Program-made: the position numbers and the translations under genes
In this document: in pieces, positions 6,234 to 21,571 of the stretch
Layout: every line of letters starts with the position of its first letter
Position numbering within the stretch: the stretch's first letter is position 1
Notes under the pieces: generated by a model
Database searches by the model: none
What the model saw: the letters and a program-made list of their open reading frames with translations, nothing else
What the model was told of the DNA's origin: nothing
Virus record (IMG/VR): IMGVR_UViG_3300020400_000847
Coordinates: 1 to 22,836 of that record
DNA: 22,836 bases
Direction: 5' to 3' (one strand)
Origin: a virus

Positions 6234-6262
6234 TTGACAAAAGTAATTGTGTAAGTTATAAT
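6234..6262 (+). promoter_or_regulatory. perfect sigma70-type promoter (TTGACA-17-TATAAT)
   Basis: TTGACA at 6234-6239 and TATAAT at 6257-6262 are both exact consensus, with the ideal 17-base spacer. The ATG of the epimerase begins six bases after the -10, exactly where transcription would be expected to start, so the mRNA is predicted to be leaderless. It lies in the only real gap (40 bases) within the sugar island. Confidence 0.85.
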
Positions 6263-6268
6263 AAAGCA

Positions 6269-6985
6269 ATGAAAATTTTGCTAACAGGACATAAAGGATT
6301 TATAGGACAACACCTACACAAACGACTTACAAACACACACCAAATTATTGGCATAGATATTAAAGATAACGGAAACATTTTATCTGCACAACTGCCAGAA
6401 GTAGATTTAGTAATACATTTAGCAGGAGTAGGTGGTGTAAGACAATCATTAGATAATCCTAAACATTATTGGGATAACAATGTGGTTGCAACAAATAGAA
6501 TTTTAAAACATTACAATAACACCAGAGTTTTATTTGCAAGTTCAAGCAGTCAATACGAGCCTTGGTTGAACCCTTATGCGGCTTCTAAACACATAATAGA
6601 AAATATACCTCATAATAACAAAGTAGCAATGAGATTTCATACAGTTTACGGAGCAACAAACAGGCAAGGAATGTTTTTCGACAAACTACTAATGGGTACA
6701 TTAAAATATGTTACAGAACATAGTAGAGATTTTGTTCATATTGATGACGTGTGTGATGCTATTGAAATTTTGATGAAAAGCGATTTTACAGGAGCGATTG
6801 ATATCGGTACAGGACAATCTATATTTGTAAAACATATTGCACCTAATTTAGAGGTGCAACCAGGAAGTATTTTAGAAAGAAAAACGTCAAAGGCAGACCC
6901 TAGTGCAATGAAAAAGTTAGGCTGGGCGCCTAAATGGACGGTCCAGAAGTTCCTTGACAAGAATGGATTTGAGGTTAAATTATAG
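6269..6985 (+). CDS. NAD(P)-dependent epimerase/dehydratase (extended SDR)
   Basis: 238 residues. N-terminal Rossmann motif GHKGFIG at 7-13 (G-x-x-G-F-I-G), the DLVIHLAGVGGV segment at 46-57, a serine-rich strand SSSSQYE at 91-97, and the catalytic Y-x-x-x-K as NPYAASKH (Y103, K107). RDFVHIDDV is the standard later motif of UDP/GDP-sugar epimerases and dehydratases. At 238 residues it is shorter than typical members (about 310), with the C-terminal substrate domain reduced; it ends at a W-x-P-KW-x-V region normally found near the C-terminus. It likely interconverts or dehydrates an NDP-sugar for the surrounding glycosyltransferases. It is first in its transcription unit. Confidence 0.85.
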   Translation: MKILLTGHKGFIGQHLHKRLTNTHQIIGIDIKDNGNILSAQLPEVDLVIHLAGVGGVRQSLDNPKHYWDNNVVATNRILKHYNNTRVLFASSSSQYEPWLNPYAASKHIIENIPHNNKVAMRFHTVYGATNRQGMFFDKLLMGTLKYVTEHSRDFVHIDDVCDAIEILMKSDFTGAIDIGTGQSIFVKHIAPNLEVQPGSILERKTSKADPSAMKKLGWAPKWTVQKFLDKNGFEVKL

Positions 6986-6986
6986 T

Positions 6987-7676
6987 ATGAAAGTTTTTGT
7001 TGGATATGATACTAGAGAAGATATTGCCTATCAAGTATGTGAATATTCTATATACAAACACAGCACATCTGCACAGGTAATACCATTAAATCAAAACACA
7101 TTAAGACAAGATAAATGGTATTGGAGAGGCGAAGATAAATTAGCGTCAACAGAATTTACATTTACAAGATTCTTGGTTCCTGCTCTAGCAAATTATAATG
7201 GCTGGGCGTTGTTTTGTGATTCAGATATTGTTTTTCTTAGAGACGTAAAAGAATTATTTGAACAAGCCGATCCTAAATATGCTGTGATGTGTGTACAACA
7301 TGATTACACTCCTAAGCCTGGAATAAAAATGGATGGACAAAAACAAACATTATATCCAAGAAAAAACTGGAGTTCAATGGTTTTATATAATTGTGGTCAT
7401 CCTTCAAATGAAAAGTTATCCGTAGATTTAGTAAACAATCCTAACTATGACGGTGCATATTTTCATAGATTTTCATGGTTAAAGGATGACGAAGTTGGAG
7501 CATTAAGCAATGAATGGAATTGGTTAGTAGGATGGTACAAAGAACCACAAGATGGAAAACCTAAAGCCATACACTACACAGAAGGAGGTCCTTGGTTTAA
7601 AAATTATAGGAACTGCGAATATGGAGATGTTTGGAAAGAATATTTAACACAAATGATGAACACACAAGGAGTATAA
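6987..7676 (+). CDS. GT-A glycosyltransferase with DSD motif (GT8-like)
   Basis: 229 residues from ATG 6987, one base after the epimerase stop. A TTG-initiated longer frame exists, but the family start (KVFVGYDTREDIAYQVCEYS) is at the ATG. The YDTRED opening, the TRFLVPAL helix (60-67), ALFCDSDIVFL with D78-S-D80, and a C-terminal HYTEGGPWF segment are the marks of a GT-A family found in phage and bacterial surface-glycan clusters. The D-x-D binds metal and nucleotide-sugar, and the late H usually completes the metal site. Sugar and acceptor are unknown. Ribosome site before the ATG is weak, so translation may depend on re-initiation from the epimerase. Confidence 0.82.
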   Translation: MKVFVGYDTREDIAYQVCEYSIYKHSTSAQVIPLNQNTLRQDKWYWRGEDKLASTEFTFTRFLVPALANYNGWALFCDSDIVFLRDVKELFEQADPKYAVMCVQHDYTPKPGIKMDGQKQTLYPRKNWSSMVLYNCGHPSNEKLSVDLVNNPNYDGAYFHRFSWLKDDEVGALSNEWNWLVGWYKEPQDGKPKAIHYTEGGPWFKNYRNCEYGDVWKEYLTQMMNTQGV

Positions 7677-7913
7677 ATGCCAAGACATATGGGAATAAAT
7701 CGCGCCTATGTTTCAGGAGAAATTGAAAAAACCCCTGAAGAAAAACAAAAGGAACTTGATGAAAAAATGAAAAAGTTTCTTGAAAAAGGTGGCAAAGTTG
7801 AAAAACTTGCACCCGGAGCCGCATACAACTTAGGATCGATGGAAAAGTCGGGAAAGCCTCACTGGACAGATAGAGAACTGAAAGACCAAGCGAAGAAAAA
7901 AACAGCAGAATGA
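7677..7913 (+). CDS. small highly charged protein of unknown function
   Basis: 78 residues, rich in K and E, starting directly after the preceding stop and preceded by GGAG. A central helix-like TPEEKQKELDEKMKKFLEKG is followed by GGKVEKLAPG. Similar short 'K-F/Y-L-x-K-G-G-K-V-x-x-L-x-P-G' sequences recur in small phage proteins of unknown role. There is no signal peptide or membrane segment. The stop overlaps the next ATG (ATGA), so it is embedded in the glycosyltransferase operon, but nothing in its sequence shows sugar activity. Confidence 0.7.
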   Translation: MPRHMGINRAYVSGEIEKTPEEKQKELDEKMKKFLEKGGKVEKLAPGAAYNLGSMEKSGKPHWTDRELKDQAKKKTAE

Positions 7914-8704
7914 TTTACGCATTTGATCACGAAGATGCCATCATAAAAGATTTTATGCTTGGCACCACAGCAGAGTATAGCACTTGGGATAAAGTTCAGC
8001 AAATGGATCCAAGTCATTCTGTGGTACTACGTGGCATGACAAAAGGTAAAATTATTCATCAATGTTGGAAAACTGGAAGAGAATTTTATTACATTGATAC
8101 AGGATACATAGGAAATTTAACAAAAAGAAAACATTATCATAGAGTTGTAAAAAATAATGTACAAAACACTCAAGTTCGTGATGTACCAGATGATAGATAC
8201 AGAAGATTTAGTCAAAGACATCCAGAAACTGTTTTCAATGGATGGAAGCCTCAAGGTCGCAGTATATTACTTGTGACACCTAGCGAGAAACCATGTAAAT
8301 TTTATGGCATTACTAGACAACAATGGATAGATGAAACAACTGCAACACTAAAAAAATTTACAGATAGACCAATCATTATAAGAGATAAAGGATTGCGTAG
8401 AGAAAGAGTTGGATCAGGTAGTTTATTCTCACAACTAGATGCAGACAATGTGTATGCTGTTGTAACATATCAATCAATTGCGGCTATTGAATCTGTTTGT
8501 CACGGCGTGCCTGCATTTGCAACTGCTCCTACTGCCGCAGATTATGTTACTCTAAAAGATTTGTCAAGAATAGAACAAGCATACCGACCTAATCCAGATC
8601 AAGTAAGGCATTGGTTAAAGTGGTTGTCATACTGCCAATATACAGTTGACGAACTTAACAATGGCTCTGCACTTAAAATTATTCAGGAATATAATTTAAA
8701 ATGA
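7910..8704 (+). CDS. GT-B-like glycan protein, paralog group member 1
   Basis: 264 residues without a D-x-D motif. The second half has a Rossmann-like pattern of GT-B glycosyltransferases and capsule/CDP-glycerol-type transferases: SILLVTPSEKP, then RPIIIRDKG, then NVYAVVTYQSIAAIESVCHG and VPAFATAP, where a buried strand ends in a small-residue loop and an 'E-S-x-x-x-G-x-P' helix, as used for nucleotide-sugar binding. It ends with TVDELNNG, a terminal signature shared with the genes at 8701 and 10491. The three look like paralogs (compare ILICCQ-x-D, then I(I/L)-x-R, then HxxxxYSS/HNSS). Function is inferred from fold pattern only. Confidence 0.62.
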   Translation: MIYAFDHEDAIIKDFMLGTTAEYSTWDKVQQMDPSHSVVLRGMTKGKIIHQCWKTGREFYYIDTGYIGNLTKRKHYHRVVKNNVQNTQVRDVPDDRYRRFSQRHPETVFNGWKPQGRSILLVTPSEKPCKFYGITRQQWIDETTATLKKFTDRPIIIRDKGLRRERVGSGSLFSQLDADNVYAVVTYQSIAAIESVCHGVPAFATAPTAADYVTLKDLSRIEQAYRPNPDQVRHWLKWLSYCQYTVDELNNGSALKIIQEYNLK

Positions 8705-9681
8705 TTACAGTAATTTCATACATGAAAGTTATTCCGCCAGGGAATAAAAATCCACAAAAGCCAATGATCATTAGAAACTTTATTGAGGGCGTGAATAGAT
8801 GTGGAGACAAAGGACTAGTCACTAGTTCAAGACAAATTATAGAAGCCGACGTGGCAGTAATACAAGGATTTGTACATAAGGATAGTAAAAATACTCCTCA
8901 TCTAAATTTAAGAAAAGGTATATATGAAAACCAAATCAACAGAGGAAAAAGATGTGTAATTGTAGACAGCAGTCTATTTTTATGGAAAGATCCAACACAA
9001 ACACGTGGGTATTTAAGATATGGCTATGATGGAATATTTCCTAATACAGCAGAATACTGTGATGTAAATCCTAATCCAGAAAGATGGAAAAAAATTAGTC
9101 AAGATTTAAACATCGAACTTAAACCTTGGAGATTAAATCAAAAAGAAGGACACATATTAATATGTTGTCAACGAGATGGTGGTTGGAGCATGGACGGTAG
9201 AGGTGTGCAGGAATGGCTGAAAGAAGTTATTACTGCAATAAGAATGCGTACAAAAAGATCAATACTAGTTAGGTTCCATCCTGGTGATAAAAATGTTAAA
9301 GTACACAGAAACACTCTAGCCAACTGGATGCAAAGTGACAAGACTGTTTTTAAAGATGTTTATGTAAGTGCAACGAAAAGTTTACAAGAAGATTTTTATA
9401 CAGCACACTCTTTAGTTGGACATAACAGTAGTCCTACGTGTGCAAGTGTGATAGAAGGTATTCCTACGTTTGTAACTGATCCTGTTAGAGCTCAGGCTAA
9501 TACAGTTTCTCATCATAGTTTTGATAATATAGAAGACCACAAAAATTTTGATAGACAATTATTTGTTGAAAGACTAGCACAAATGCATTGGACTTTGGAT
9601 GAAGTAAAAAATGGACAATGCTGGTTACATATGAGAAAGTGGGCTACGAAACCGTCTTCCAGTACGGCTCAACCCGCTTAA
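8701..9681 (+). CDS. GT-B-like glycan protein, paralog group member 2
   Basis: 326 residues. Shares with the gene at 10491 the block HILICCQRDGG, then the helix VITAIRMRTKRS, then ILVRFHPGD, then a HSLVGHNSSPTCASVIEGIP loop and TFVTDP. The 'R-x-H-P' strand end and 'N-S-S-x-x-x-x-x-x-x-G-x-P' loop resemble the donor-binding domain of capsule/CDP-polyol-type GT-B enzymes. It ends with WTLDEVKNGQCWLH and a serine-rich tail. The ATG overlaps the previous stop (ATGA). Its last 38 bases overlap, tail to tail, the 3' end of the minus-strand glycosyltransferase, so the final ~12 residues may be recently acquired. Confidence 0.65.
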   Translation: MITVISYMKVIPPGNKNPQKPMIIRNFIEGVNRCGDKGLVTSSRQIIEADVAVIQGFVHKDSKNTPHLNLRKGIYENQINRGKRCVIVDSSLFLWKDPTQTRGYLRYGYDGIFPNTAEYCDVNPNPERWKKISQDLNIELKPWRLNQKEGHILICCQRDGGWSMDGRGVQEWLKEVITAIRMRTKRSILVRFHPGDKNVKVHRNTLANWMQSDKTVFKDVYVSATKSLQEDFYTAHSLVGHNSSPTCASVIEGIPTFVTDPVRAQANTVSHHSFDNIEDHKNFDRQLFVERLAQMHWTLDEVKNGQCWLHMRKWATKPSSSTAQPA

Positions 9682-10474
9682 CTTTCAAATCTTTTCCTAA
9701 ACTTTGACCTTTTGCCTTTCTGCTATCACCTTTTAAATGATCGAAGTAAGCACCAAGTTCACAATTAATTAAAGGATGACCTTCTCCACTAATTAGATGT
9801 CCACTAAAATCTTTAATAGGACTTTGCGGAAAAATTTGTTTATGTCTTTTTAAAACGACATCAAATACATAAGAGTCATGCCATTCTTCTAAAGTGAAAA
9901 TCCCTTTTTCTGCTTCATCGTACATACGTTCGAATTGCTGTAAAAAGTTTTGACATTCTGCAGTTTTTAAATTTAATCCATAAAATCCACACTCGGGCCA
10001 TTTTTTTCCTCTACCAAGATAGTGCAAAACATTAGTGTTAGGCAACAACCTTTCAAAGTCTTCCTGTGTAACAGTGCTATGGACTATGCTGTCAGCATCC
10101 ATCCAAATTAAAATATCGGCATCTGTTCTTTTTGCTTCATGAAATATAGCATACACTTTGTTTGCGAATCTTATTGCGTCCCATTTAAATTCTTTATGCC
10201 AGTCTCTTGGACGCTTTGCTTTTATTTCTGGAGGACATTTTCCATTTGCTTTTGGCACATTGCCCCACTTTGTTTTGAAATTATTGAGTTTTGTAAGTGT
10301 TTGTTTGGCGTCGAAAATCAACGTTCTACTGTCGCCTGTAGGTTTACAATCTTCAGCATACACGACAAGTGGTATTCTATTATCCACCTTGTCATTAAAA
10401 CTTTTGATAAATTTATTAGCATAGACATTATAACCATTTTGGTTAAATGTAGTAACAACGGAATATTTGGTCAT
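9644..10474 (-). CDS. GT-A-like glycosyltransferase with DAD motif (minus strand)
   Basis: 276 residues from the ATG at 10474; a longer frame reaches 10570, but the extra residues do not look like a domain and cross the divergent gene's start. The N-terminus TKYSVVTTFNQNGYNVYANK and DILIWMDADSIVH (D126-A-D128) give the GT-A nucleotide-sugar site. Downstream, ECGFYGLNLKTAECQNFLQQ and TLEEWHDSYVFDVVL are conserved-looking acceptor-side segments; the W-H-D-S motif is typical of this group. It is the only glycosyltransferase here on the minus strand, which sets it apart as an insertion or inversion. It must have its own promoter; TGTAAATA (minus strand, 10483-10490) is a weak late-like candidate. 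Confidence 0.78.
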   Translation of the reverse strand: MTKYSVVTTFNQNGYNVYANKFIKSFNDKVDNRIPLVVYAEDCKPTGDSRTLIFDAKQTLTKLNNFKTKWGNVPKANGKCPPEIKAKRPRDWHKEFKWDAIRFANKVYAIFHEAKRTDADILIWMDADSIVHSTVTQEDFERLLPNTNVLHYLGRGKKWPECGFYGLNLKTAECQNFLQQFERMYDEAEKGIFTLEEWHDSYVFDVVLKRHKQIFPQSPIKDFSGHLISGEGHPLINCELGAYFDHLKGDSRKAKGQSLGKDLKVKRVEPYWKTVS

Positions 10475-10490
10475 AATATAGGTATTTACA

Positions 10491-11327
10491 ATGAAATTTG
10501 GATTACAACGCAAACATGGATCTTTGAACAGTGTGCCTGTCTTTGACGCTGTTGCAAAAGGATTATCCAAACTAGGTCACACTGTTGTAAATGACACAAC
10601 TGAATGTGATATACCTGTTCTGTGGAGTATGCTGTGGCATGGAAGAATGAAGGATAATAAAAAAATTTATGAGTCAGCATTATCACAAAAGAAAAAAGTT
10701 TTATTTTTAGAAGTCGGCGGAATAAAAAGAAACACCACTTGGAAGGTTGCTTTAAATGGAATAAATCGATTAGGTTACTTTGGGCCGCTTAATAATGATG
10801 ACACACGAGCAAAACTATTGGGATTAGAATTAAAAGAAAATAAGAAAGGTGATGATATCTTAATTTGTTGTCAACATGATAAAAGCCATCAGTGGCGTAA
10901 TCAACCGCCAATGCAAATTTATATAGATAGACTTATACATGAATTAAGGATGTACACAGATAGAAAAATAATAATTAGACCTCACCCAAGATGCCCTGTG
11001 GATAATAAATTACAAAACTATAAAAATGTTGAGTTGCAAGTTCCTAAACAAATTGCAAATACATATGACGATTTTGATTTAGGCTTCAACAACATCCATG
11101 CTGTTATCAGTTATAGTAGCAATCCAGGAATTCATGCTGTACTAAATGGAACACACGCATTTGTTGGTCCGGAAAGTCTTGCATATCCAGTAGCAAATAA
11201 AGAACTAAAAAACATTGAAAATCCCCAAATATTTGAACGTAATCAGTGGTTGTATGATTACGCATACACAGAATGGACCATTGAAGAAATCGCACAAGGA
11301 CTGCCTTTTTCACGATTGACTTTTTAA
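10491..11327 (+). CDS. GT-B-like glycan protein, paralog group member 3
   Basis: 278 residues. Opens with KFGLQRKHGSLNSVPVF and then a first Rossmann-like half (CDIPVLWSMLWHGRM). The second half carries DILICCQHDKSHQW, RKIIIRPHPRC, then HAVISYSSNPGIHAVLNGTH and AFVGPES, the same order of blocks as the gene at 8701, and ends with YTEWTIEEIAQG, the shared terminal signature. The 'R-P-H-P-R' strand end is typical of capsule and CDP-polyol GT-B transferases. It starts 16 bases from the divergent minus-strand gene. The predicted -35 of the next promoter overlaps its last codons, so transcription is handed over at this point. Confidence 0.68.
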   Translation: MKFGLQRKHGSLNSVPVFDAVAKGLSKLGHTVVNDTTECDIPVLWSMLWHGRMKDNKKIYESALSQKKKVLFLEVGGIKRNTTWKVALNGINRLGYFGPLNNDDTRAKLLGLELKENKKGDDILICCQHDKSHQWRNQPPMQIYIDRLIHELRMYTDRKIIIRPHPRCPVDNKLQNYKNVELQVPKQIANTYDDFDLGFNNIHAVISYSSNPGIHAVLNGTHAFVGPESLAYPVANKELKNIENPQIFERNQWLYDYAYTEWTIEEIAQGLPFSRLTF

Positions 11328-11344
11328 CCAAAATCCCATATAAT
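11316..11344 (+). promoter_or_regulatory. near-perfect sigma70-type promoter (TTGACT-17-TATAAT)
   Basis: TTGACT at 11316-11321 and TATAAT at 11339-11344 with a 17-base spacer. The ATG of the 424-aa gene follows six bases after the -10, so a leaderless transcript is expected. The first 17 bases after the -35 (TTTTAACCAAAATCCCA) closely resemble those of the promoter at 19092 (TTTACCAAAATATAAAA). Confidence 0.85.
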
Positions 11345-11350
11345 GTTGAA

Positions 11351-12625
11351 ATGCGTATCATCAACATCGAAGATTGTTTAGAACTTATGTGCGGACTGCT
11401 CATAGAGGAGGAGTTTACGCCTGCGATCGAAATCGCTGAAAAAGATAAAAAATTACTATTGAGCATATCACAATCCACTTTCAAAGGTAAAGCATTGTCT
11501 GATAGACAGTATGAAGTTTGTAAAAAAATATTAACAAACGGATATCAAAAAGACTTCTTAGATAGAAATGTAGACCTGCCATCTAGTTTAAACAATATAA
11601 GAAAACCATTACGTAAAATTGACAGGAGTGAATATATTGCTATTGAAAACTACCAAGATAATTTAGGCAATGCAGGTTGGCAATTTCATAATTATAATGG
11701 TAAATGTCTAGTTGTTAGATTTCCTTTTAATATGAAATATTCAAAATTGATTGGAGAGATTAAAAAATTTATTTTGTATCCATCTGAAGGATACAAGTCA
11801 GATAATTATAAAAATATTTTACCATTTAACGAAACTATTGTATACAAAACAATAAGTTTGTTTAAAGGATTGATAAAAGACATTGATCCAGTGTTACTAA
11901 AAATGCATGAAGAAATTGACGAATGGGTAAAGCATAGAGAAAAATATGTGCCAGGAATTTATGGGCTACAAATAAAAAATACACCTTTAGATATTGTACA
12001 ACCTTTAATAGATAAAATAGGAAAACCATCAATTGAAAATTTATTCTTATACAAAGATAAAAGAGAACAAGCAGGTTTAGTACACTTTGATGAAGGCGAT
12101 TTAAATGACTCTATAAAGAATGTAAAGCCACTTACAAAAAAAATCTTAAGTAGGAACCATTCTCTCATACAGATTAACAAGAAGCAACATCCTATCAATG
12201 AAGTTTTAGATACTTTATTAGAACTAAAACGATTTCCATTGTTAGTCATTTTAGACGAAAAGGATCCATTGGACCAATTGGTACAGTTCCATAACTTAAC
12301 CAAAAACATTATACCAATAGAAGAAATTTCGGTTTTATTCAGAAAAGAAAATAGAAAAGAAGGTAGACACTTTAATGATTATCTAAAAACACAAAAGATT
12401 AACAATAAACTTGATATTAATACAAAAATAGTGTATATTAATAATAAGAAAATCCCAAAAGACTTATTGAAAGGAGTTTGGGAGCCAGAATGTGTTATCA
12501 GTCTTGGATCGGTTAGGCACTATAATAAAATTGACAAACTGATTCATCAATATGATCTCACTATACACTATGACCGTGAAGACGGATATTGGAATGATAT
12601 GATTTGGAGTATTGAAAAATTATGA
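11351..12625 (+). CDS. large protein of unknown function, first gene of the uvsW operon
   Basis: 424 residues that I do not recognise. The N-terminus is acidic (MRIINIEDCLELMCGLLIEE). A segment at about 45-62, FKGKALSDRQYEVCKKILTN, looks like the short 'L-T/S-x-K/R-Q-x-x-x-x-x-x-I' helix seen near the N-terminus of some phage DNA-processing proteins. The rest is a mix of charged and hydrophobic segments with no Walker A, H-D or metal motif visible. A strand RFPLLVILDEKDPLDQLVQF around residues 294-313 and GVWEPECVISLGSVRHYN near the C-terminus suggest an alpha/beta domain. It stops with an ATGA overlap onto uvsW, so co-translation with the UvsW helicase and a joint role are plausible. It has its own consensus promoter. 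Confidence 0.8.
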   Translation: MRIINIEDCLELMCGLLIEEEFTPAIEIAEKDKKLLLSISQSTFKGKALSDRQYEVCKKILTNGYQKDFLDRNVDLPSSLNNIRKPLRKIDRSEYIAIENYQDNLGNAGWQFHNYNGKCLVVRFPFNMKYSKLIGEIKKFILYPSEGYKSDNYKNILPFNETIVYKTISLFKGLIKDIDPVLLKMHEEIDEWVKHREKYVPGIYGLQIKNTPLDIVQPLIDKIGKPSIENLFLYKDKREQAGLVHFDEGDLNDSIKNVKPLTKKILSRNHSLIQINKKQHPINEVLDTLLELKRFPLLVILDEKDPLDQLVQFHNLTKNIIPIEEISVLFRKENRKEGRHFNDYLKTQKINNKLDINTKIVYINNKKIPKDLLKGVWEPECVISLGSVRHYNKIDKLIHQYDLTIHYDREDGYWNDMIWSIEKL

Positions 12626-14079
12626 GATGTAAAATAACTATTGCAGATGAAGTAAATGTTAAAATACACAATCTTCCAGTAGATGTTAGAAGAAAAATAG
12701 CAAACAAATTAAAATTTCAAGTGCCATATGCAAGATATTTGCCTCAATACAAATTAGGAAGATGGGATGGTAAAATTGGTTTCTTTGGTTTAGGAGGTAA
12801 TGGCTTTGTTAATCATTTGGATGTAATAATAAATTTACTTCATCAAAATGGTGTAGAAATAGATGAGATAGAAGACCAAAGAGAAAAAGTAGATTTAGCA
12901 TTTACAGAAATAGATAAAAATTATCTACATGATAAAATTTGGCCTAAAGGTCACGTTGCTGAAGGACAAAATATTGAACTACGTGATTATCAGGTAGAAG
13001 TTATAAACAATTTTTTAAAAAATCCACAAAGTTTACAAGAAGTTGCCACTGGTGCTGGTAAAACAATCATTACTGCTTGTTTATCTAAACTCTGTGAACC
13101 TTTAGGCAGAACACTAGTTGTAGTACCAAACAAAAGTCTTGTTACACAAACAGAAGATGATTATAAAATTGTAGGACTGGACGTAGGAGTTTATTTTGGA
13201 GATAGAAAAGAGTTGAATAAAACACATACAATTTGTACTTGGCAAAGTTTGAATGTTTTAGATAAAAAAACTAAAGATGGTGAAGCAAAAGTAACTTTAA
13301 CTGATTTTTTACAAGGTGTAAAAACAGTAATCATAGATGAAGTACACCAAGCCAAAGCAGAAGTGCTAAAAAAATTATTAACGCAACATCTTAATCATGC
13401 TCCTATAAGATGGGGTTTGACAGGAACTGTTCCTAAAGAACAGTTTGAATTCCAGGCAATATTGGCAGGTATAGGTCCAGTAATCAATCAAATAAGTGCT
13501 AAGGAGTTGCAAGAAAAAGGAGTATTAAGTAATTGTCATGTTAATATTGTACAAATGATTGATACATTAGTTCACAAAAATTATCAAGAAGAATTAAAAT
13601 TTTTAGTAACAAACACAATAAGGGTGAATTATATTGCAAAATTGATAGATAAAATTTCCCAATCAGGCAACACACTTGTTTTAGTAGATAGAATTACAGC
13701 AGGCGAAAAATTACAAGAACTAATTCCAAATAGTACATTTATAAGAGGCGAAACAAAACTTCAAGACAGAAAAGATCAATATGATGAAATAAGTGATTCT
13801 GACAACAAAGTTTTAATTGCAACATATGGAGTAGCAAGTGTTGGAATTAATATTCCAAGAATTTTTAATCTAATATTAATCGAACCAGGCAAATCATTTA
13901 TAAGAGTAATACAATCTATTGGAAGAGGCATACGTAAGGCAAAGGACAAAGACTTTGTGCAAATTTGGGATATTACTTCAACTTGTAAATTTGCGAAAAG
14001 ACATTTAACACAAAGGAAAAAGTTTTACAAAGAAGCAAACTATCCTTTTACAGTAGAAAAGGTTGATTATACAAAATGA
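12622..14079 (+). CDS. uvsW: UvsW-like DNA/RNA helicase
   Basis: 485 residues, close to T4 UvsW (about 500). The N-terminal domain ends with the RYLPQYKLGRWDGKIGFF sequence typical of UvsW. Then come the SF2 motifs: RDYQ at 121-124, ATGAGKT Walker A at 142-148, IIDEVHQAK with D-E-V-H at 239-242, LTGT at 266-269, the VASVGINIPR region at 404-413, and QSIGRGIR (motif VI) at 431-438. T4 UvsW unwinds branched DNA and R-loops, and takes part in the switch from origin-dependent to recombination-dependent replication and in stalled-fork rescue. Coupled by ATGA overlaps to the genes on both sides. Confidence 0.95.
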   Translation: MRCKITIADEVNVKIHNLPVDVRRKIANKLKFQVPYARYLPQYKLGRWDGKIGFFGLGGNGFVNHLDVIINLLHQNGVEIDEIEDQREKVDLAFTEIDKNYLHDKIWPKGHVAEGQNIELRDYQVEVINNFLKNPQSLQEVATGAGKTIITACLSKLCEPLGRTLVVVPNKSLVTQTEDDYKIVGLDVGVYFGDRKELNKTHTICTWQSLNVLDKKTKDGEAKVTLTDFLQGVKTVIIDEVHQAKAEVLKKLLTQHLNHAPIRWGLTGTVPKEQFEFQAILAGIGPVINQISAKELQEKGVLSNCHVNIVQMIDTLVHKNYQEELKFLVTNTIRVNYIAKLIDKISQSGNTLVLVDRITAGEKLQELIPNSTFIRGETKLQDRKDQYDEISDSDNKVLIATYGVASVGINIPRIFNLILIEPGKSFIRVIQSIGRGIRKAKDKDFVQIWDITSTCKFAKRHLTQRKKFYKEANYPFTVEKVDYTK

Positions 14080-14582: not shown

Positions 14583-14833
14583 TGCCTAAAAAGAAAAAAG
14601 AACAAGCAATGATTTATACAAGTCCTGATGGAGGAGCCACAGTGTACGCACAACCAATTAATGGCAAAGGCGAAAGAGTTTTGATTGAATCTCCAAATTA
14701 TCCTGATTGGTATCTATCAGAACTAGAAATTAGCGAAATCGTTGATTACGCAAATGAAGGAAATAAGTCTTTACAAATCCAATTAAAGAAACTAAAGTTA
14801 ACATACGAATTAGTAAAAGAGGACACATGGTAA
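14582..14833 (+). CDS. small protein of unknown function (GTG start)
   Basis: 83 residues with a GTG start overlapping the last base of the previous stop (TAGTG). An internal ATG at 14609 (MIYTSPDGGATVYAQPINGK) is a possible alternative start; the ribosome site is weak for both. Sequence features: a basic N-terminus PKKKKEQ, a central PDGGATVYAQP turn region, PDWYLSELEISEIVDYA and a lysine-rich terminal helix. Similar short 'IY-S-P-D-G-G-x-T-V-Y' proteins appear in marine phages, as I recall. Function unknown. Its end overlaps the next gene by seven bases. Confidence 0.75.
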   Translation: MPKKKKEQAMIYTSPDGGATVYAQPINGKGERVLIESPNYPDWYLSELEISEIVDYANEGNKSLQIQLKKLKLTYELVKEDTW

Positions 14834-15306: not shown

Positions 15307-15983
15307 GTGAGGAATATATTTGCCAACACTGTGGAGCAAAATTTACACGTGAAAAGACTTTAGCAGTGCATATGTGTGAACAAAAAAGAAGATTTACACA
15401 AAAAGATGAACGTAGAGTACAACTAGGATATCAAACATATATGAGATTTTATGAACTGTGTCAGAATCAACATGAGCCTAAAACATATTTGCAATTTTGC
15501 AAAAGTCCATACTACACAGCATTTGTAAAATTCGGAAGTTTTCTTAGTAACGTAAAGCCTTTATATCCGGAAAAATTTATCGATTATGTGGTAACATCGG
15601 GTGTTAAATTAGATCATTGGTGTCGTGAAGAACTGTATCAACAATATGCTTTAGATATTATTCTTAAAGAAAGAGTTGAAGATGCAATGAAAAGATCTAT
15701 TAAAAATATGATGGAATGGTCTGATGAAAAAGGTGCTCCTTGGAATCATTATTTTAAATATGCAAGTCTAAACAGAGCAACACAAGAAATAAAAGACGGA
15801 AAAATTTCTCCATGGCTTGTTTTAAACTGCACATCAGGAAAAGAAATGCTTAAAAATTTAAATGAAGAACAATTACAAATTGTCAGTTACGTATTGAATC
15901 CGCAACATTGGTCACTTAGGTTCAAAAGAGCGCCTGCTGATGTTGAAATGGTTAAGGAGATTGTCAAACAATCAGGATTATGA
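15303..15983 (+). CDS. zinc-finger phage protein of unknown function
   Basis: 226 residues. The first 30 hold a C2H2-like or C2HC zinc finger: C7-x2-C10-x12-H23-x-C25, with the classical hydrophobic spacing (CQHCGAKFTREKTLAVHMC). The rest is a single larger domain with PKTYLQFCKSPYYTAFVKFG, EKFIDYVVTSGVKLDHW and RSIKNMMEWSDEKG, which I recall from unnamed proteins of marine T4-like phages. Zinc fingers of this type usually bind nucleic acid, so it could be a transcription or replication factor, but nothing proves it. ATGA overlap on both sides. Confidence 0.82.
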   Translation: MSEEYICQHCGAKFTREKTLAVHMCEQKRRFTQKDERRVQLGYQTYMRFYELCQNQHEPKTYLQFCKSPYYTAFVKFGSFLSNVKPLYPEKFIDYVVTSGVKLDHWCREELYQQYALDIILKERVEDAMKRSIKNMMEWSDEKGAPWNHYFKYASLNRATQEIKDGKISPWLVLNCTSGKEMLKNLNEEQLQIVSYVLNPQHWSLRFKRAPADVEMVKEIVKQSGL

Positions 15984-16447
15984 TAGACTTAATAATAGGA
16001 TCGGACCATAGAGGATTTGAATTAAAGGAAGAACTGTCAAAATGGTTATGCCCCCTTGACATGGAATCAGACACAAAGTTTGATATAGCAGTCTTTCAAG
16101 ACGCTGGTGTGCATAAGCCAAAAAGAACAGACTATAACGATATTGCAATTAAAGTTGCTGAAAAAATGGACATTTGTGATAGAGGCATTTTAATATGCGG
16201 CAGTGGTTTTGGCATGGCGATTCAGGCAAATCGATATCCAAAAGTCAGGGCAGTGGTGTGTAATGATATATTTGATGTAGAACAGGCTAGACAACATAAC
16301 GATATGAATGTATTATGTATAGGAGCAGATATAGTAGATTTTGATACTGCGAAGTATATGTGTGAAGCATTCTTCACAACAAAGTTTTTAAAAGGAAGGC
16401 ACACAAGGCGAGTAAAAAAATTAAATGAAAACAGAAACACAAATTGA
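15980..16447 (+). CDS. rpiB: RpiB/LacA-type sugar-phosphate isomerase
   Basis: 155 residues, close to E. coli RpiB (149). Conserved features: IIGSDHRGFELKE at 5-17 (D9, H10), DICDRGILICGSGFGMAIQA at 64-83 with C73 as the expected catalytic cysteine, NRYPKVRAVVC, ARQHNDMNVLCIGA at 103-116 with H106 as the expected ring-opening histidine, and a terminal RHTRRVKKL. RpiB interconverts ribose 5-phosphate and ribulose 5-phosphate, but LacA/B-type isomerases act on other sugars, so the substrate is open. As phage cargo it could boost pentose phosphate supply for nucleotides or feed the sugar island. It overlaps the endonuclease III gene by 23 bases. Confidence 0.88.
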   Translation: MIDLIIGSDHRGFELKEELSKWLCPLDMESDTKFDIAVFQDAGVHKPKRTDYNDIAIKVAEKMDICDRGILICGSGFGMAIQANRYPKVRAVVCNDIFDVEQARQHNDMNVLCIGADIVDFDTAKYMCEAFFTTKFLKGRHTRRVKKLNENRNTN

Positions 16448-17105
16448 ATACATTTACAAACAACTAGGAAATTATTGGCCCAAATATTCCAATCGAAAAC
16501 CTGCGGCAAAAATACACAAAGAAGCATACACCAGTTTGATTGGAGTAATGCTTTCAGCACAAAGTCAAGATAAAAGAACAGCAATCGCTTGTAAACAATT
16601 ATTTGCTTTAGCAGATACACCACAAGAAATGGTTAAATTAACGCAGGAAGAAATCATAGAAGCAATACGCCCTGCAGGATTACACAATGCTAAATCAAAA
16701 AATATACTTGCAACAAGTTATAAACTTCTTATGGAATATGGTGGCAAAGTTCCACAAACACAAAAACAACTAATGGACTTACCGGGTATAGGCAGAAAAA
16801 GTTCGGACATTATGATGAGATTTGTTTGGGGTGCGCCAAACATAGCAGTTGATACTCATGTGTTTAGATTGCTATGGAGATTAGGATGGACAGATTCTTT
16901 AGATGAAAGTAAAAGTGCAATCACAGTTAATAATAGTACTCCAGACAAATACAAATATGCCGCACATATGCAATTAATTACTCATGCAAAAAGAGTTTGT
17001 ACAAGTAAAAAGCCAAAGTGCCATATATGTGTAATTGATGAAGTATGCGATAAAAGACATATAAACGTGCCTAAATCAAAACTAAGAGAGGTTGTAAATG
17101 CCTGA
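16425..17105 (+). CDS. nth: endonuclease III-like DNA glycosylase/AP lyase with 4Fe-4S cluster
   Basis: 226 residues, close to E. coli Nth (211). The helix-hairpin-helix is LMDLPGIGRKSSDIMM with K125 (catalytic lysine) and AVDTHVFRLLWRLGW with D143 (catalytic aspartate); their distance of 18 residues equals that of E. coli K120/D138. The iron-sulfur motif is C192-x6-C199-x2-C202-x5-C208, exactly the canonical spacing. The N-terminal SLIGVMLSAQSQDKR is also typical. It removes oxidised pyrimidines or handles abasic sites in the phage or host DNA, a repair activity also seen in several phages (T4 uses an unrelated enzyme, DenV). The start lies inside the RpiB gene. Confidence 0.92.
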   Translation: MKTETQIEYIYKQLGNYWPKYSNRKPAAKIHKEAYTSLIGVMLSAQSQDKRTAIACKQLFALADTPQEMVKLTQEEIIEAIRPAGLHNAKSKNILATSYKLLMEYGGKVPQTQKQLMDLPGIGRKSSDIMMRFVWGAPNIAVDTHVFRLLWRLGWTDSLDESKSAITVNNSTPDKYKYAAHMQLITHAKRVCTSKKPKCHICVIDEVCDKRHINVPKSKLREVVNA

Positions 17106-17661
17106 TATAGATATAGACTTTGCTGACAGAAACATTGTGTTGGACAAATTAAAGCATAGAGTAGCAAAATTAGATACAGGAAAGAAACACAACACAGGAG
17201 TATATTTTACAGAAGTTCCACACAACCCATTAGACAAAGTTAGCACACTAGATTATAAACAAGCCGAAGACAGAGGATATTTCAAAGTAGATTTTTTGAA
17301 TGTTAGCATTTATGAAAAAGTAAAAAATGAAAAACATCTTGTTGAATTAATGACAAGAAAACCGATGTGGCAACTTTTAGAAGCAAAAGATTTTAGTGAC
17401 CAGGTATTTCATTTGAATGGACACAGTGCTATTTTACAAAAACTAAAGCCAACATCCATCTCCCAACTGGCGGCAGTGTTGGCGATTATAAGACCTAGCA
17501 AAAGATATCTAATAAACAAATCATGGGAAGATATAATGAAGGAAGTTTGGGTAAAACCAAAAGAAGGCTACTTTTTTAAAAAAAGTCATGCAACATCATA
17601 TGCTGTTGCAGTAGTGGTGCATATGAATCTAATTTGTGAGCAATTAAAAAATGAAAAGTAA
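17098..17661 (+). CDS. mini-DnaE: shrunken DNA polymerase III alpha-like protein
   Basis: 187 residues that read like short fragments of DnaE/PolC stitched together in order. PDIDIDFADR at 2-11 is the catalytic palm motif (DnaE PDxDxDF) with D3 and D5. HNTGVYFTEV follows the position of the 'H-A-S/T-G-V' motif. YFKVDFLNVSIY at 61-72 matches the third catalytic aspartate segment (K-x-D-F-L-G-L), with D65. ISQLAAVLAIIRPSKR at 121-136 corresponds to 'D-L-x-A-L-x-A-L-x-R-P-G', and YFFKKSHATSYAVAVV at 158-173 to 'F-N-K-S-H-A-x-A-Y-A'. The full enzyme is about 1,160 residues. Polymerase activity is doubtful; see findings. GAGAGG lies before the start. Confidence 0.8.
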   Translation: MPDIDIDFADRNIVLDKLKHRVAKLDTGKKHNTGVYFTEVPHNPLDKVSTLDYKQAEDRGYFKVDFLNVSIYEKVKNEKHLVELMTRKPMWQLLEAKDFSDQVFHLNGHSAILQKLKPTSISQLAAVLAIIRPSKRYLINKSWEDIMKEVWVKPKEGYFFKKSHATSYAVAVVVHMNLICEQLKNEK

Positions 17662-17890
17662 AGCAAGAAGAAGTTTAGCAAAAACATTAACTTGGCGTGT
17701 GTTAGCCACAACTGATACTTTTATCATATCGTGGTTTATTACAGGTACTTGGACTTTAGCAGGTGCCATTGCTGGCATAGAAGTTGTGACAAAAATGTTT
17801 TTGTACTATGGTCATGAAAGACTTTGGAACAGAGTAAGATGGGCCAAAGAAAAAGACGACCCACATACAACAATTTGGCCCTATCAATAA
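17651..17890 (+). CDS. DUF2061 family small membrane protein
   Basis: 79 residues. RSLAKTLTWRVLATTDTFII, then SWFITGTWTLAGAIAGIEVV and TKMFLYYGHERLWNRVRW is the hallmark sequence of DUF2061, a family of small proteins with two predicted membrane segments (about residues 17-34 and 37-56). The function is unknown. Phage copies are uncommon but known to exist in marine phages, as far as I recall. It overlaps the mini-DnaE gene by 11 bases. Its final ten codons contain one arm of an inverted repeat (17841-17881). Confidence 0.85.
   Translation: MKSKARRSLAKTLTWRVLATTDTFIISWFITGTWTLAGAIAGIEVVTKMFLYYGHERLWNRVRWAKEKDDPHTTIWPYQ
17841..17881. terminator. possible bidirectional terminator hairpin
   Basis: GGGCCAAA (17841-17848) and TTTGGCCC (17874-17881) form a perfect 8-bp inverted repeat with a 25-base loop, within the end of the DUF2061 gene and just before the tail-to-tail junction. 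No U tract follows, so termination is uncertain. The next ten bases, AATAATTATT (17886-17895), are a perfect palindrome spanning both stop codons. Confidence 0.35.
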
Positions 17891-18259
17891 TTATTTAGGT
17901 TTTCTAACTAACTGAACTGATTTACGTTTAGTGCGTTTCATAGCCAGACTGTTAAGATTTGTGCAAGGGCCTATCACTACCCTCACGTCTTTAGTTGCCA
18001 TGATCATTATGATATCTTTGAATTTAGACATTTCGTCACGCATGAAAATACTAATAGGGATCATTCGATTTGATTCCCACCACCACGTCTCACATACTTC
18101 AATGAAGTGCTTTTTTTGTTCATCTGAGTGTAAATCAGTGTAAACATACACACTTGTTACTGAATTATCTTGATTGTTTATGACCCCTACATACTCTTTT
18201 CCGCCGTATTCCACGACACTAATGTAGGGAAATTTACTTTCTATTTCGTCTCTTAACAT
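17891..18259 (-). CDS. conserved T4-like phage protein of unknown function
   Basis: 122 residues on the minus strand. The central VCETWWWESNRMIPISIFMR, followed by MIMATKDVRVVIGPCTNL and the basic C-terminus TKRKSVQLVRKPK, resembles a conserved unnamed protein of marine T4-like phages, as I recall. The TWWWESNR block is the diagnostic feature. It reads convergently with the DUF2061 gene with no base between the two stops, and divergently from the structural gene with 22 bases between. It must have its own promoter in or before the structural gene; I see no strong one. Confidence 0.8.
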   Translation of the reverse strand: MLRDEIESKFPYISVVEYGGKEYVGVINNQDNSVTSVYVYTDLHSDEQKKHFIEVCETWWWESNRMIPISIFMRDEMSKFKDIIMIMATKDVRVVIGPCTNLNSLAMKRTKRKSVQLVRKPK

Positions 18260-18261
18260 CT

Positions 18262-18269
18262 GATAAATA
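18262..18269 (+). promoter_or_regulatory. T4-late-like promoter box GATAAATA
   Basis: GATAAATA differs in one base from the T4 late promoter consensus TATAAATA. It lies 12 bases before the ATG of a structural protein gene, in the short divergent gap, where a late promoter read by a gp55-like sigma would be expected. No -35 is visible, which fits a late promoter. Reading the box is by motif only; AT-rich DNA can give it by chance. Confidence 0.5.
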
Positions 18270-18281
18270 TTTTACAAAGTT

Positions 18282-19091
18282 ATGCAATTAGTTCAAAGAT
18301 ATTTATTAAATAGTAATGTACTGCTTACCGCAGATGTGGCAGGAAACATAACGGAGTATAAAGCCTTGTATTCAAGACGATTAAACATTTACAGAGGAAT
18401 AGATAACAAAATTACCTTTCAGGTGTTGAACGCAGATCAGAAACCTGTGTCTATTCTAAACATTTACACTCCTAAGTTCATGATGTTTGATGAAAAAACA
18501 CGCCTTGTTGTTGAAAAAGACGCTACAATCATTGAAACAACAACTCCAAGCAACGTTGGAATGTTTACAGTAAGTTTAACTGAAAACGAACTATTAAATT
18601 TGCAATCACAGTTTTTAAACTATACTGTAGAACTTAAAAATGATTCAAGCAATGAAAGAATATTAACATACAGCAATTCACATTTTGAAAGCAAAGGCAC
18701 CGTATATCTAGATGCCAGTGAAATACCAGGTCCATTAAAGTCTTATAGTGTTACTTCATTAAGTCAAGAAAGTGGTGGAAGTGCAGTGTTTTTATCAGAA
18801 GCAATTACAGCCGAGCCGGCAATAAACGGAAATGAAGCACTACACACAGCGGCATTCTATCTGAATAGTGCAGATGGTGACGTTACTGTACAAGCAACAT
18901 TAGATTCGCAGATCAGCAGTTCAACTAATTGGTCAGATGTTGCAACTATTTCAGTAGACACTACTGACACATTGAGATATGTAAACTTCAATGGAGTATT
19001 CAGTTACTTGAGAATTAAACACACAACAGATAAAGCAGATCCAGATAACGATTACGACAACGACATTACCAAAATTTTAGTTCGAAATTAA
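18282..19091 (+). CDS. virion structural protein, baseplate/fibre-like
   Basis: 269 residues. The N-terminal half (RRLNIYRGIDNKITFQVLNA followed by DQKPVSIL) looks like the N-terminal domain of baseplate upper proteins such as BppU, with a 'Y-R-G-D-x-x-x-I/F-x-V-x-x-A/D-G-x-P-V' pattern. The second half is rich in S and T and has beta-sandwich type blocks (DVTVQATLDSQISSSTNWSDVA, then TDTLRYVNFNG and VFSYLRIKHTT), as in small carbohydrate-binding or discoidin-like virion domains. The C-terminus is acidic (DPDNDYDNDIT). No signal peptide. A virion role fits the late-type promoter. It stands alone between replication genes. Confidence 0.68.
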   Translation: MQLVQRYLLNSNVLLTADVAGNITEYKALYSRRLNIYRGIDNKITFQVLNADQKPVSILNIYTPKFMMFDEKTRLVVEKDATIIETTTPSNVGMFTVSLTENELLNLQSQFLNYTVELKNDSSNERILTYSNSHFESKGTVYLDASEIPGPLKSYSVTSLSQESGGSAVFLSEAITAEPAINGNEALHTAAFYLNSADGDVTVQATLDSQISSSTNWSDVATISVDTTDTLRYVNFNGVFSYLRIKHTTDKADPDNDYDNDITKILVRN

Positions 19092-19120
19092 TTGACTTTT
19101 ACCAAAATATAAAATATAAT
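19092..19120 (+). promoter_or_regulatory. near-perfect sigma70-type promoter (TTGACT-17-TATAAT)
   Basis: TTGACT at 19092-19097 overlaps the last bases of the structural gene's stop region, and TATAAT lies at 19115-19120 with a 17-base spacer. The primase ATG begins seven bases after the -10 (19128), so transcription starts at or one base before the ATG. Confidence 0.85.
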
Positions 19121-19127
19121 AACGTAA

Positions 19128-20132
19128 ATGAATTCTGTTTACGACACACTAATACAACACTTGCCTTTTAAAAGAAAGAAAACGCCTAGTGGCTGGATGG
19201 CTTTTAATGCACCGTGTTGTTCTCATCAAGGCACAACAGCAGATTCAAGACAAAGAGGTGGACTGATAGCAAATGCTGATGGTGGTATTAGTTATCATTG
19301 TTTCAATTGTGGATATACAGCAAGTTGGCAACCTGGCAGAAACTTATCCTATAAATTACGTAAACTTATGCGTTGGCTTAATACTCCAGATGATGTGATA
19401 ACAAAATTGGCGTTACACGTATTAAAACTAAAAGAAGAGACTACTGGTAAAACACCAATTATACAACTACCAAAATTTGCAAAAAAGGACTTGCCTGAAG
19501 GAGCAAAACGTTTACAAGAATGGACAAATTACAAAGCATTAGAACCAACAGGACTAGATGAAAACTATGTAAAGGTATTAGAATATTTAGAACAAAGACA
19601 ACTGGCAAATTTAGATTATAATTTTTATTGGACACCTAATCCAGCATATAGAGATAGATTAATCATTCCGTTCTATTATAGATCGGATATTGTAGGCTAC
19701 ACAGCAAGAAAAGTTGTAGATGGAAAAGTAAAATACATATCCGACCAACAGCCTGGATATGTTTTTAATATTGATAATCAGAATGATGAGAGAGAATTTG
19801 TTATCGCAGTAGAAGGCCCCATTGATGCTTTAAGTATCGATGGAGTAGCACTTTTAGGAAGTGAAGTAAAACAACAACAACAAATACTTTTGAACAGTTT
19901 AGGCAAACACGTTATTGTAATGCCTGATAGAGATGAAGCAGGAGTTAAATTAGTTGAACAAGCCATAGAGAGTGGCTGGAGTGTTAGTATGCCTAACTGG
20001 CATCCAGAAGTGAAGGATGTCAACGATGCGATAATTAAATACGGGAGACTGCACACTTTGTATTCAATAGTGAAATTTGCAGAACAGTCACAACTAAAAA
20101 TAAAACTGAGGATGAAAAAATGGTTTTCATAA
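19128..20132 (+). CDS. 61: DNA primase (gp61-like)
   Basis: 334 residues, close to T4 gp61 (342). A zinc ribbon lies at the N-terminus: PCCSH (C30, C31, H33) and CFNCGY (C58, C61). Then a TOPRIM domain: IAVEGPIDALS with E229, then VIVMPDRDEAG with D267 and D269. The linker WTPNPAYRDRLIIPFYY is typical of the phage primase group. In T4 it works in a complex with the gp41 helicase to prime the lagging strand; here the helicase gene lies about 1.4 kb downstream in the same operon. A 13-base overlap with the next small gene. Confidence 0.93.
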   Translation: MNSVYDTLIQHLPFKRKKTPSGWMAFNAPCCSHQGTTADSRQRGGLIANADGGISYHCFNCGYTASWQPGRNLSYKLRKLMRWLNTPDDVITKLALHVLKLKEETTGKTPIIQLPKFAKKDLPEGAKRLQEWTNYKALEPTGLDENYVKVLEYLEQRQLANLDYNFYWTPNPAYRDRLIIPFYYRSDIVGYTARKVVDGKVKYISDQQPGYVFNIDNQNDEREFVIAVEGPIDALSIDGVALLGSEVKQQQQILLNSLGKHVIVMPDRDEAGVKLVEQAIESGWSVSMPNWHPEVKDVNDAIIKYGRLHTLYSIVKFAEQSQLKIKLRMKKWFS

Positions 20133-20242
20133 AAAGGGTAATTCAAATTTTGTTATCGCCATTTAGAACAATAGTTCAAAAATACAAATACAGAAAGAAA
20201 ATTAAAGAATTACAAAAAAGAGATCCTTTTATATACAAATAG
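20120..20242 (+). CDS. 40-residue basic small protein with conserved-looking C-terminus
   Basis: A 40-residue frame starting inside the primase end (ATG 20120). GAGG at 20108-20111, eight bases before, makes it a well-placed ribosome site. The N-terminal 18 residues are hydrophobic (VFIKRVIQILLSPFRTIV) and might be a membrane segment or amphipathic helix; the C-terminal part is strongly basic and ends RDPFIYK. I recall small proteins ending in '-DPF-x-Y' near replication genes in T4-like marine phages. Too short for a length-based search but supported by ribosome site, overlap and composition. It ends six bases before the next gene. Confidence 0.65.
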   Translation: MVFIKRVIQILLSPFRTIVQKYKYRKKIKELQKRDPFIYK

Positions 20243-20248
20243 GAAAGA

Positions 20249-20548
20249 GTGAGTAGTCTAAAAGAAACATACATTGATGCACTTAAAACGCATGATTGGA
20301 ATTACGAAGTTCAACCTGATGAAAAATTTGACGTGGGAGTACAGCAAAAAACAAACATCAGATCAATAGTTGAACAAGTGTATGAACTGAAAAAGGATCC
20401 AGCAAAACTGTTTTACAAACATTGTCCCGAACATTTATACAAAAATTCAGCAGATTATGGAATACGTACGCCATGGCAGGAATTTAAAATGCATTTAGAA
20501 ATATTACAAGAAGAAAGACAGAATGAATACAATAAATTTATTATCTAG
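20249..20548 (+). CDS. unknown protein between primase and carbamoyltransferase (GTG start)
   Basis: 99 residues with a GTG start and AGGA at 20241-20244 (spacing four bases; tight but usable). No in-frame ATG occurs near the N-terminus, so GTG is needed. Mostly helical: SSLKETYIDALKTHDWNYEV, then NIRSIVEQVYELKKDPAKLF, then TPWQEFKMHLEIL. No motif I recognise. Small proteins at this place in the operon are common in T4-like marine phages. The following gene has AAGGA upstream. Confidence 0.72.
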   Translation: MSSLKETYIDALKTHDWNYEVQPDEKFDVGVQQKTNIRSIVEQVYELKKDPAKLFYKHCPEHLYKNSADYGIRTPWQEFKMHLEILQEERQNEYNKFII

Positions 20549-20563
20549 TAAAGGATCAATAAC

Positions 20564-21571
20564 ATGATAGTTTGGGGGATAACGGGAAACAACCATGATG
20601 CAAGTTTGGCAGTTATGGAATATCATGTAAAAGGTTTAACAGATAAATGGGGTTTGTATATTCATTGGGCAGGTAAAAGTTCAGATTTTAGTGGTGTGCC
20701 TGGTGATCCTAATTTATGTCCTGAGATGTTAGCACATATAAGATCAAATCCTCGATGGGCTCACCCAGCCAAAGTAATTTGGTATGAACGCCCAATTAAG
20801 AAAAGTTTGCGACAATTAATTGCAGGACAAGGATTAACATTCAAAGAAAACAATGTTAAAAAGTTTTTAGCAAGACAAGGAATACACGTTCCTATAGAGT
20901 ATGTTGATCATCATGAAAGTCATGCGGCTTATGGGTATTACACATCACCGTTCCGTAATGCGGCGGTTGTAGTATTAGACTCTATTGGTGAATTTGACAC
21001 ATTTACCATTTGGCATGGTCATGGTGATAAAATAGAAAAACGCCATGCAACTAGATATCCAAATAGTGTAGGACTTTTTTATTCTGCAATGACACAACGT
21101 TGCGGATTCAAAGCAAATGCTGAAGAATTTAAACTAGAACAATTAGCAACAAAAGGCAATTGGAGAAAACATCATAGAATAATGATGGAAGAAATTATAG
21201 ACAAAAGATTTCCATTTAAAACAAGAGAAAATTTACACAGAGGTTGTAACTGGTGGAGACCTGAATTGAATACTGAACAAGACCTTGCGGACTTGGCGGC
21301 TACAACGCAACACGTTTTTGAACAAGTGTTAATGTGTGCAAGTTCTTGGATACAAATGAATATACCAACTCAAAATATAGTTTTGGTGGGCGGATGTGCT
21401 TTGAATAAAACTGCACGTACCAAACTACAATCTGTGTGGGACGATATTTGGGTTCCAAAAAATCCTGGAGATCCAGGTTCCTGTATAGGTGCTGTGTGTG
21501 CCAAATTTAAGAAGCACATTGACAAATCAGATGAAAGGTGGTATAATAAGGAACATGGCAAAACAGAATAA
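20564..21571 (+). CDS. short NodU/CmcH-type carbamoyltransferase
   Basis: 335 residues, about 60% of a normal NodU/CmcH protein (about 550-600 aa). It covers the N-terminal TsaD/Kae1-like fold: GNNHDASLAV at 8-17, the DHHESHAAYGYY motif at 115-126 (family H-H-x-x-H-A), VVVLDSIGEFDTF at 135-147, and IVLVGGCALNKTA at 272-284, ending with PGDPGSCIGA at 301-310. The last stretch is the ATPase phosphate loop region. It does not have the C-terminal domain that makes the carbamoyl-adenylate in the long enzymes. It sits between primase and helicase. Marine T4-like phages carry similar genes here, as I recall. It may carbamoylate a hydroxyl on a sugar or a modified DNA base. Confidence 0.85.
   Translation: MIVWGITGNNHDASLAVMEYHVKGLTDKWGLYIHWAGKSSDFSGVPGDPNLCPEMLAHIRSNPRWAHPAKVIWYERPIKKSLRQLIAGQGLTFKENNVKKFLARQGIHVPIEYVDHHESHAAYGYYTSPFRNAAVVVLDSIGEFDTFTIWHGHGDKIEKRHATRYPNSVGLFYSAMTQRCGFKANAEEFKLEQLATKGNWRKHHRIMMEEIIDKRFPFKTRENLHRGCNWWRPELNTEQDLADLAATTQHVFEQVLMCASSWIQMNIPTQNIVLVGGCALNKTARTKLQSVWDDIWVPKNPGDPGSCIGAVCAKFKKHIDKSDERWYNKEHGKTE
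21519..21547 (+). promoter_or_regulatory. perfect sigma70-type promoter inside the carbamoyltransferase end
   Basis: TTGACA at 21519-21524 and TATAAT at 21542-21547, spacer 17 bases, exact consensus. The helicase ATG is seven bases further (21555). It lies in coding sequence, yet fits the same geometry as the other three promoters. AAGGA at 21548-21552 gives the upstream readthrough mRNA a close ribosome site. Confidence 0.8.

Follow-up and report, generated by a model that had tools for sequence, protein, structure and literature searches.

The 22,836-nt stretch of viral DNA analysed here (IMG/VR record IMGVR_UViG_3300020400_000847, positions 1 to 22,836; hereafter the window) is a 22.8-kb record, probably a fragment, and contains four sites at which a predicted sigma70 promoter ends six or seven nt before an ATG. 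With a probability of roughly 0.84, these are conserved host-type sigma70 promoters making leaderless mRNAs, that is, mRNAs with a 5' untranslated region of 0–1 nt whose transcription start site (TSS) would be the A of the start codon. As judged from sequence comparison, the arrangement is a stable, gene-specific trait of replication genes (the primase, a 424-aa gene at the head of the UvsW operon and, in many lineages, the replicative helicase) in a clade of marine T4-type jumbo phages. Below, N6, N7 and so on give the number of bases between the -10 hexamer and the start codon. The four predicted promoters are:

6234..6268, plus strand: sigma70 promoter TTGACA-N17-TATAAT-N6; predicted TSS at the A of ATG 6269.
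11316..11350, plus strand: sigma70 promoter TTGACT-N17-TATAAT-N6; its -35 falls in the final codons of upstream gene 10491-11327.
19092..19127, plus strand: sigma70 promoter TTGACT-N17-TATAAT-N7; it begins one base past the stop of the upstream structural gene.
21519..21554, plus strand: sigma70 promoter TTGACA-N17-TATAAT-N7; TGG precedes the -10 (extended -10), and the site lies within the carbamoyltransferase 3' end.

A search of the whole window for TTGACW-N17-TATAAT-N6/7-ATG (W being A or T) returned exactly these four sites, all on the plus strand, and none on the complementary strand, reproducing the positions, the exact 17-base spacers (4/4) and the N6 (ATG 6269 and 11351) and N7 (ATG 19128 and 21555) gaps described in an initial annotation of this DNA. 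The pattern is not equally frequent in dinucleotide-shuffled versions of the window, which held a mean of 0.01 sites and a maximum of 1. When both strands were searched for perfect promoters with a looser spacer (TTGACW-N16..18-TATAAT), the total was again four, and 4/4 stand 6–7 bases 5' of an ATG, with p about 1.5e-6 given a background rate of 38/1087 for TATAAT without a -35. Taken on sequence only, these predicted promoters have the elements of host sigma70 (TTGACA/TATAAT, 17 ± 1 spacer), and their -10s end 6–7 nt 5' of the start codon as in the leaderless (TA-led) class; the room for a Shine-Dalgarno (SD) leader before the ATG that marks T4-type promoters is absent from the sites of the window family.

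The same geometry recurs in related phage contigs. In 25 related records, an ATG follows TTGAC-N17/18-TATAAT at N5-7 57 times versus 5 times at N16-18. A scan of 17 contigs including the window (909 kb), of the kind proposed in the initial annotation, gave 45 sites against 0.15 in simulation. In these contigs an ATG stands at N6/N7 for 41 of 68 distinct perfect promoters, with counts of 0–5 at every other distance, and at N6/7 for 45/72 TATAAT motifs with a -35 versus 38/1087 without one (Fisher 4e-39). A gene-centred count gave the same peak (N6 26 and N7 13 of 919 genes); by this count no N6/7 peak was found in T4, HTVC008M or P-SSM2, and a general trait of T4-like phages was rejected on that ground. 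The earlier label 'T4-like' therefore stands broadly, the nearest named kin being the jumbo phages Phosso, Atu_ph07 and PA5oct, but the peak does not extend to T4, HTVC008M or P-SSM2.

The genes served by the predicted promoters, with the UvsW gene that follows the second of them, are:

6269..6985, plus strand: NAD-dependent nucleotide-sugar epimerase, 238 aa (phrog_540, E 1.7e-40); predicted leaderless.
11351..12625, plus strand: 424-aa orphan gene, first in the UvsW operon (no Pfam/PHROG family; AF2 pLDDT 89); predicted leaderless.
12622..14079, plus strand: UvsW-type DNA helicase (phrog_16, E 1.9e-80); 4-nt overlap with the 424-aa gene and no promoter of its own.
19128..20132, plus strand: DNA primase, 334 aa, phrog_47 type (phrog_47, E 4.8e-41); predicted leaderless or with a 1-nt leader.
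21555..22836, plus strand: DnaB-like replicative helicase, truncated by the window end (phrog_19, E 5e-70); predicted leaderless.

The promoter at 6234 thus heads a unit of the epimerase and sugar genes, that at 11316 the 424-aa gene, the UvsW helicase and the next genes (1–4 nt overlaps), that at 19092 the primase and that at 21519 the DnaB-like helicase. The named relatives of the primase are T4-type jumbo phages (Phosso, Atu_ph07, PA5oct, RaK2 and GAP32), the best at about 36% identity; closer relatives are found in uncultured contigs of up to 330 kb.

In the enlarged contig set, 65/65 distinct primase upstreams have N6-8 spacing and 0 have an SD. The order TTGAC(A/T)-N17-(-10)-N6/7-ATG is present in 49/50 distinct primase upstreams (79 loci), with diverged spacers and no SD, and the remaining one, L052, shows the same order by eye, with TAATAT as its -10. 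Most relatives align with the primase from its first residue. The -35 of one sublineage falls within the upstream gene (..LDKVLVRS*), and the TAA stop of that gene contributes to the -10 TAAAAT; in other lineages the whole promoter is 3' of the upstream gene's stop. The promoter is thus shifted relative to the neighbouring gene and fixed relative to the ATG, which is the strongest argument for selection on spacing. In the primase tree, 50/50 marine rows fall within one supported clade (97/96), all leaderless by spacing. The cultured phage PA5oct, whose primase is preceded by TTGACA-N17-TATAAT-N6-GTG, lies outside that clade in an unresolved position. The remaining ten named phages were scored as leadered; for Phosso and SCTP-2 this was the default label, as no promoter had been identified there.

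Inverted repeats of 6–8 bp, centred between the -10 and the ATG, were also seen in the primase promoters of L084, L022, L028, L030, L035 and L021. Their arm sequences differ (TGTTGTTA/TAACAACA in L084; ATAGTAT/ATACTAT and ATACTAT/ATAGTAT in L022 and L030; TAGCGT/ACGCTA in L021). Such repeats are absent from the window and from most lineages (mean repeat length 4.2 versus 3.5 in shuffles); a universal operator was rejected, as they occur in sublineages only, and a lineage-specific operator is possible.

For the 424-aa gene, N6-8 spacing was found in 23/29 distinct homologue upstreams, down to 24% identity (about 24/29 if an in-frame upstream ATG, which fits N6, is taken for L015); the leadered exceptions G020, L058 and L071 each have an SD. 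The protein could be placed in no Pfam or PHROG family, and named phages yielded no homologue, its good matches being only among uncultured phage proteins, and a Foldseek comparison of its AF2 model with the PDB gave weak matches (best E 0.01), several of them to RecA2-like helicase domains. For the UvsW gene behind it, 28 distinct upstreams contained no strong promoter.

Among 61 distinct helicase upstreams, 33 of the 39 strong promoters lie at N5-7, and N6 recurs behind a different upstream gene in L044, L078, L084 and L036. In the window the helicase promoter lies entirely within the carbamoyltransferase gene end (..HID.....WYNK..), and the helicase ATG lies in a 17-nt overlap with this gene. 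At 21539-21547 the -10 doubles as its Trp-Tyr-Asn codons, as it does in close kin. The epimerase promoter recurs at N6 in G019 and at N10 in G018 and is otherwise not kept. The initial annotation had taken four sites of equal spacing as a sign of design; this holds for the primase and the 424-aa gene and largely for the helicase, and is weaker for the epimerase, where conservation reaches close kin only.

Several features of the starts themselves point to leaderless use. An SD 4-mer precedes the start at 0/128 N5-8 promoters versus 12/36 at N>=11, an absence due in part to geometry, since the -10 takes up the room that an SD would need. Like the three exceptions named above, L130 and L137 are leadered and have an SD. 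In a wider IMG/VR sample, among the matches listed, an SD-like motif precedes 2% of N6 versus 88% of N25 genes. The contrasts at the start codon and at -1 are less forced by geometry than that in SD content. All 82 of 82 starts at N6-7 are ATG, while leaders of 20–36 nt precede 19 ATG, 6 GTG and 1 TTG (n=26); leaderless mRNA is reported to need AUG, non-AUG starts being inefficient (PMC3616915), and the ATG-only N6-7 starts agree with this. A pyrimidine precedes the ATG in 80/93 N6 genes versus 53/81 N25 genes, an excess to be expected if transcription begins at a Y(-1)A(+1) step whose +1 is the A of the start codon. Separately, L457, L461 and similar N9 loci carry a variant, TATAATGGAGTTATTATG, with GGAG right behind the -10; a transcript beginning at +7 would lack this GGAG, but read-through RNA could make use of it.

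Leadered genes in the same phages show that the N6/7 spacing is gene-specific. Upstreams of relatives of the UvsW, structural, carbamoyltransferase and 14076 genes, used as controls, have essentially no promoter, while control gene 14827 has conserved leadered promoters with leaders mostly of 28–34 nt, and other genes have leaders of 23–34 nt, often with an SD. In G007 (L238), positions 600-5500 hold short ORFs, most with a perfect promoter, a leader of 25–35 nt and a GAGGG-type SD, and look like an early region with classical leaders. N6/7 as a general property of all promoters was rejected, gene 14827 and the early small ORFs of G007 being leadered. Kept spacing, missing SDs, ATG-only starts, the pyrimidine at -1 and the leadered genes alongside together lend strong sequence-level support to the earlier prediction of leaderless mRNAs.

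In the mechanism that we infer, the host sigma70 (housekeeping) polymerase would start at the A of the ATG, and the primase and other first cistrons would be translated from a 5'-terminal AUG with no need for SD pairing; downstream cistrons of each unit would rely on overlap coupling or on their own sites. What is observed here is sequence, spacing, conservation, the lack of SDs and the exclusive use of ATG, from which promoter activity, TSS position, leaderless translation and its timing would follow.

A number of points weigh against this interpretation. The homologue sets are the 80 nearest relatives per query, a biased sample, and the loci are related to one another, so that counts do not equal independent events. 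As said, the lack of SDs at N6/7 is partly dictated by geometry. Transcripts from N7 sites may carry a 1-nt leader. At the helicase, coding constraint in close kin accounts for part of the conservation, since the promoter lies inside the carbamoyltransferase end, and the epimerase site is lineage-specific. The PA5oct start, a GTG, is a poor leaderless start.

Genome compaction is a possible alternative: promoters would have been pressed into the shortest space available, and leaderless starts would be tolerated without having any particular role in regulation. The genes do lie end to end with 1–4 nt overlaps, and two of the promoters overlap or sit within upstream genes. Against this, the same phages keep the 23–34 nt leaders, often with SDs, at other genes, and certain genes have held the 6–7 spacing across deep divergence. 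We think it unlikely that the promoters are real but minor, with most primase and helicase made from long read-through transcripts by translation coupled to the upstream gene; the genes are co-directional and the helicase start overlaps its upstream gene, but the primase keeps a near-consensus -35/-10 in 65/65 upstreams even though the upstream junction changed, and it has no SD for initiation on read-through RNA. It is quite improbable that the -10/ATG junction serves chiefly for control at the DNA level, as an operator spanning the -10 and +1, with leaderlessness as a side effect: repeats centred just past the -10 in some lineages (L084, L022, L030 and L021) would suit an operator, but their absence from the window and most lineages, and their small excess in length over shuffles, do not. 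Chance or coding constraint alone can be dismissed, since the 45 versus 0.15 sites and the Fisher value refute it for the set, and the Trp-Tyr-Asn reading of the helicase -10 in close relatives leaves the other three promoters unexplained, while helicase promoters persist behind other upstream genes.

If these promoters do make leaderless mRNAs, candidate reasons for their use at these genes would be compaction, insulation from SD- or leader-directed control, or an infection stage that favours leaderless mRNA, as reported for phage phiYS40 (review PMC3594737). Among the matches listed in the IMG/VR sample, a tally and not a rate, N6 genes include primases, DNA polymerases, exonucleases and dCMP deaminases, and N25 genes are led by late sigma factor, HNH endonuclease and ligase, with DNA polymerase also present. 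A more far-reaching and doubtful proposal is a replication regulon defined by translation mode, in which replisome genes across a large clade of marine jumbo phages would be kept leaderless to use an SD-independent 5'-AUG/70S route favoured at one infection stage, and leadered SD genes (among them, in the wider sample, those for late sigma factor and ligase) the ordinary route. The initial annotation had suggested a host whose ribosome state might change during infection. A look for phage-coded IF3 or bS21 as a cause gave nothing general, with no IF3-like gene in 10 records (0/10) and a bS21 gene in 1/25 records (L305, G002 266996-267151, a 330-kb relative). Twelve SAR11 genomes (G026-G037, 12.7 Mb) contained 0 N6/7 sites and only 8 perfect promoters, giving no support to inheritance from a SAR11 host. 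Perfect TTGACW-N16..18-TATAAT is rarer in SAR11 than its backwards control, and the phage has four in 22.8 kb.

For Proteobacteria and their phages, the usual view is that leaderless mRNA is an exception. Here it looks conserved and gene-specific for essential replication genes of a marine phage group that has been widely sampled, and leadered genes serve as internal controls. The question of its use becomes directly testable; PA5oct on P. aeruginosa is a cultured relative with the arrangement at its primase. The spacing can further serve as a simple guide for revising annotated start codons: at PA5oct 145884-145892 (L246 1885-1893) the annotated primase GTG abuts TATAAT, and a second GTG in the same frame, 6 nt further on at 145890, would suit a leaderless start; the annotation is probably two codons too long.

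Like the window, the jumbo phages PA5oct, RaK2, GAP32/CBB, SE_PL, Phosso and Atu_ph07 have a homologous primase, and the preceding gene is annotated as structural in several; unlike in the window, TATAAT lies farther 5' of the primase start in CBB, GAP32, SE_PL, UE-S1, XbC2 and Atu_ph07, and a leader remains. T4 early and middle promoters share with the window the host sigma70 elements and the kinds of genes served (primase, helicase). However, T4 has 0 perfect TTGACW-N16..18-TATAAT and 0 TATAAT at N6/7 before its genes' first ATGs, its -10-to-ATG distances being longer.

The leaderless gene of lambda is cI. Like the window sites, as predicted, it is a phage gene that the host sigma70 polymerase transcribes starting at the AUG; unlike them, it is one regulatory gene of a temperate phage and not a conserved replisome gene set. 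Lambda was the first known leaderless case (PMC3160421). TA-led leaderless genes are described in bacteria (Zheng et al. 2011, PMC3160421), and in Deinococcus-Thermus the -10 adjoins the ORF (PMC12340547); in D. radiodurans a -10 motif, most often TACACT, is found at about a third of genes (PMC3160421; PMC12340547). Bacterial TA-led genes resemble the window sites in having a -10 6–7 bp before the start codon, no SD and a start at the predicted TSS, whereas the window differs in its near-consensus -35, its exact 17-bp spacer and its occurrence in a phage, at particular genes only and with leadered genes intermixed. The Thermus phage phiYS40 has leaderless middle and late transcripts, with host IF2 up and IF3 down (review PMC3594737), and is, like the window family (for which this is predicted from sequence), a lytic phage with a leaderless mRNA class. 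It differs from the window family in that it infects a host from a phylum where leaderless genes abound, its leaderless class is middle/late, and its genome contains 0 matches to the perfect pattern. No description of the same pattern in marine or jumbo phages was found in the literature searched, the coverage of which was incomplete. Leaderless architecture is already known in bacteria and Thermus phages, while the conserved placement of such predicted promoters at replisome genes of T4-type jumbo phages seems to be new.

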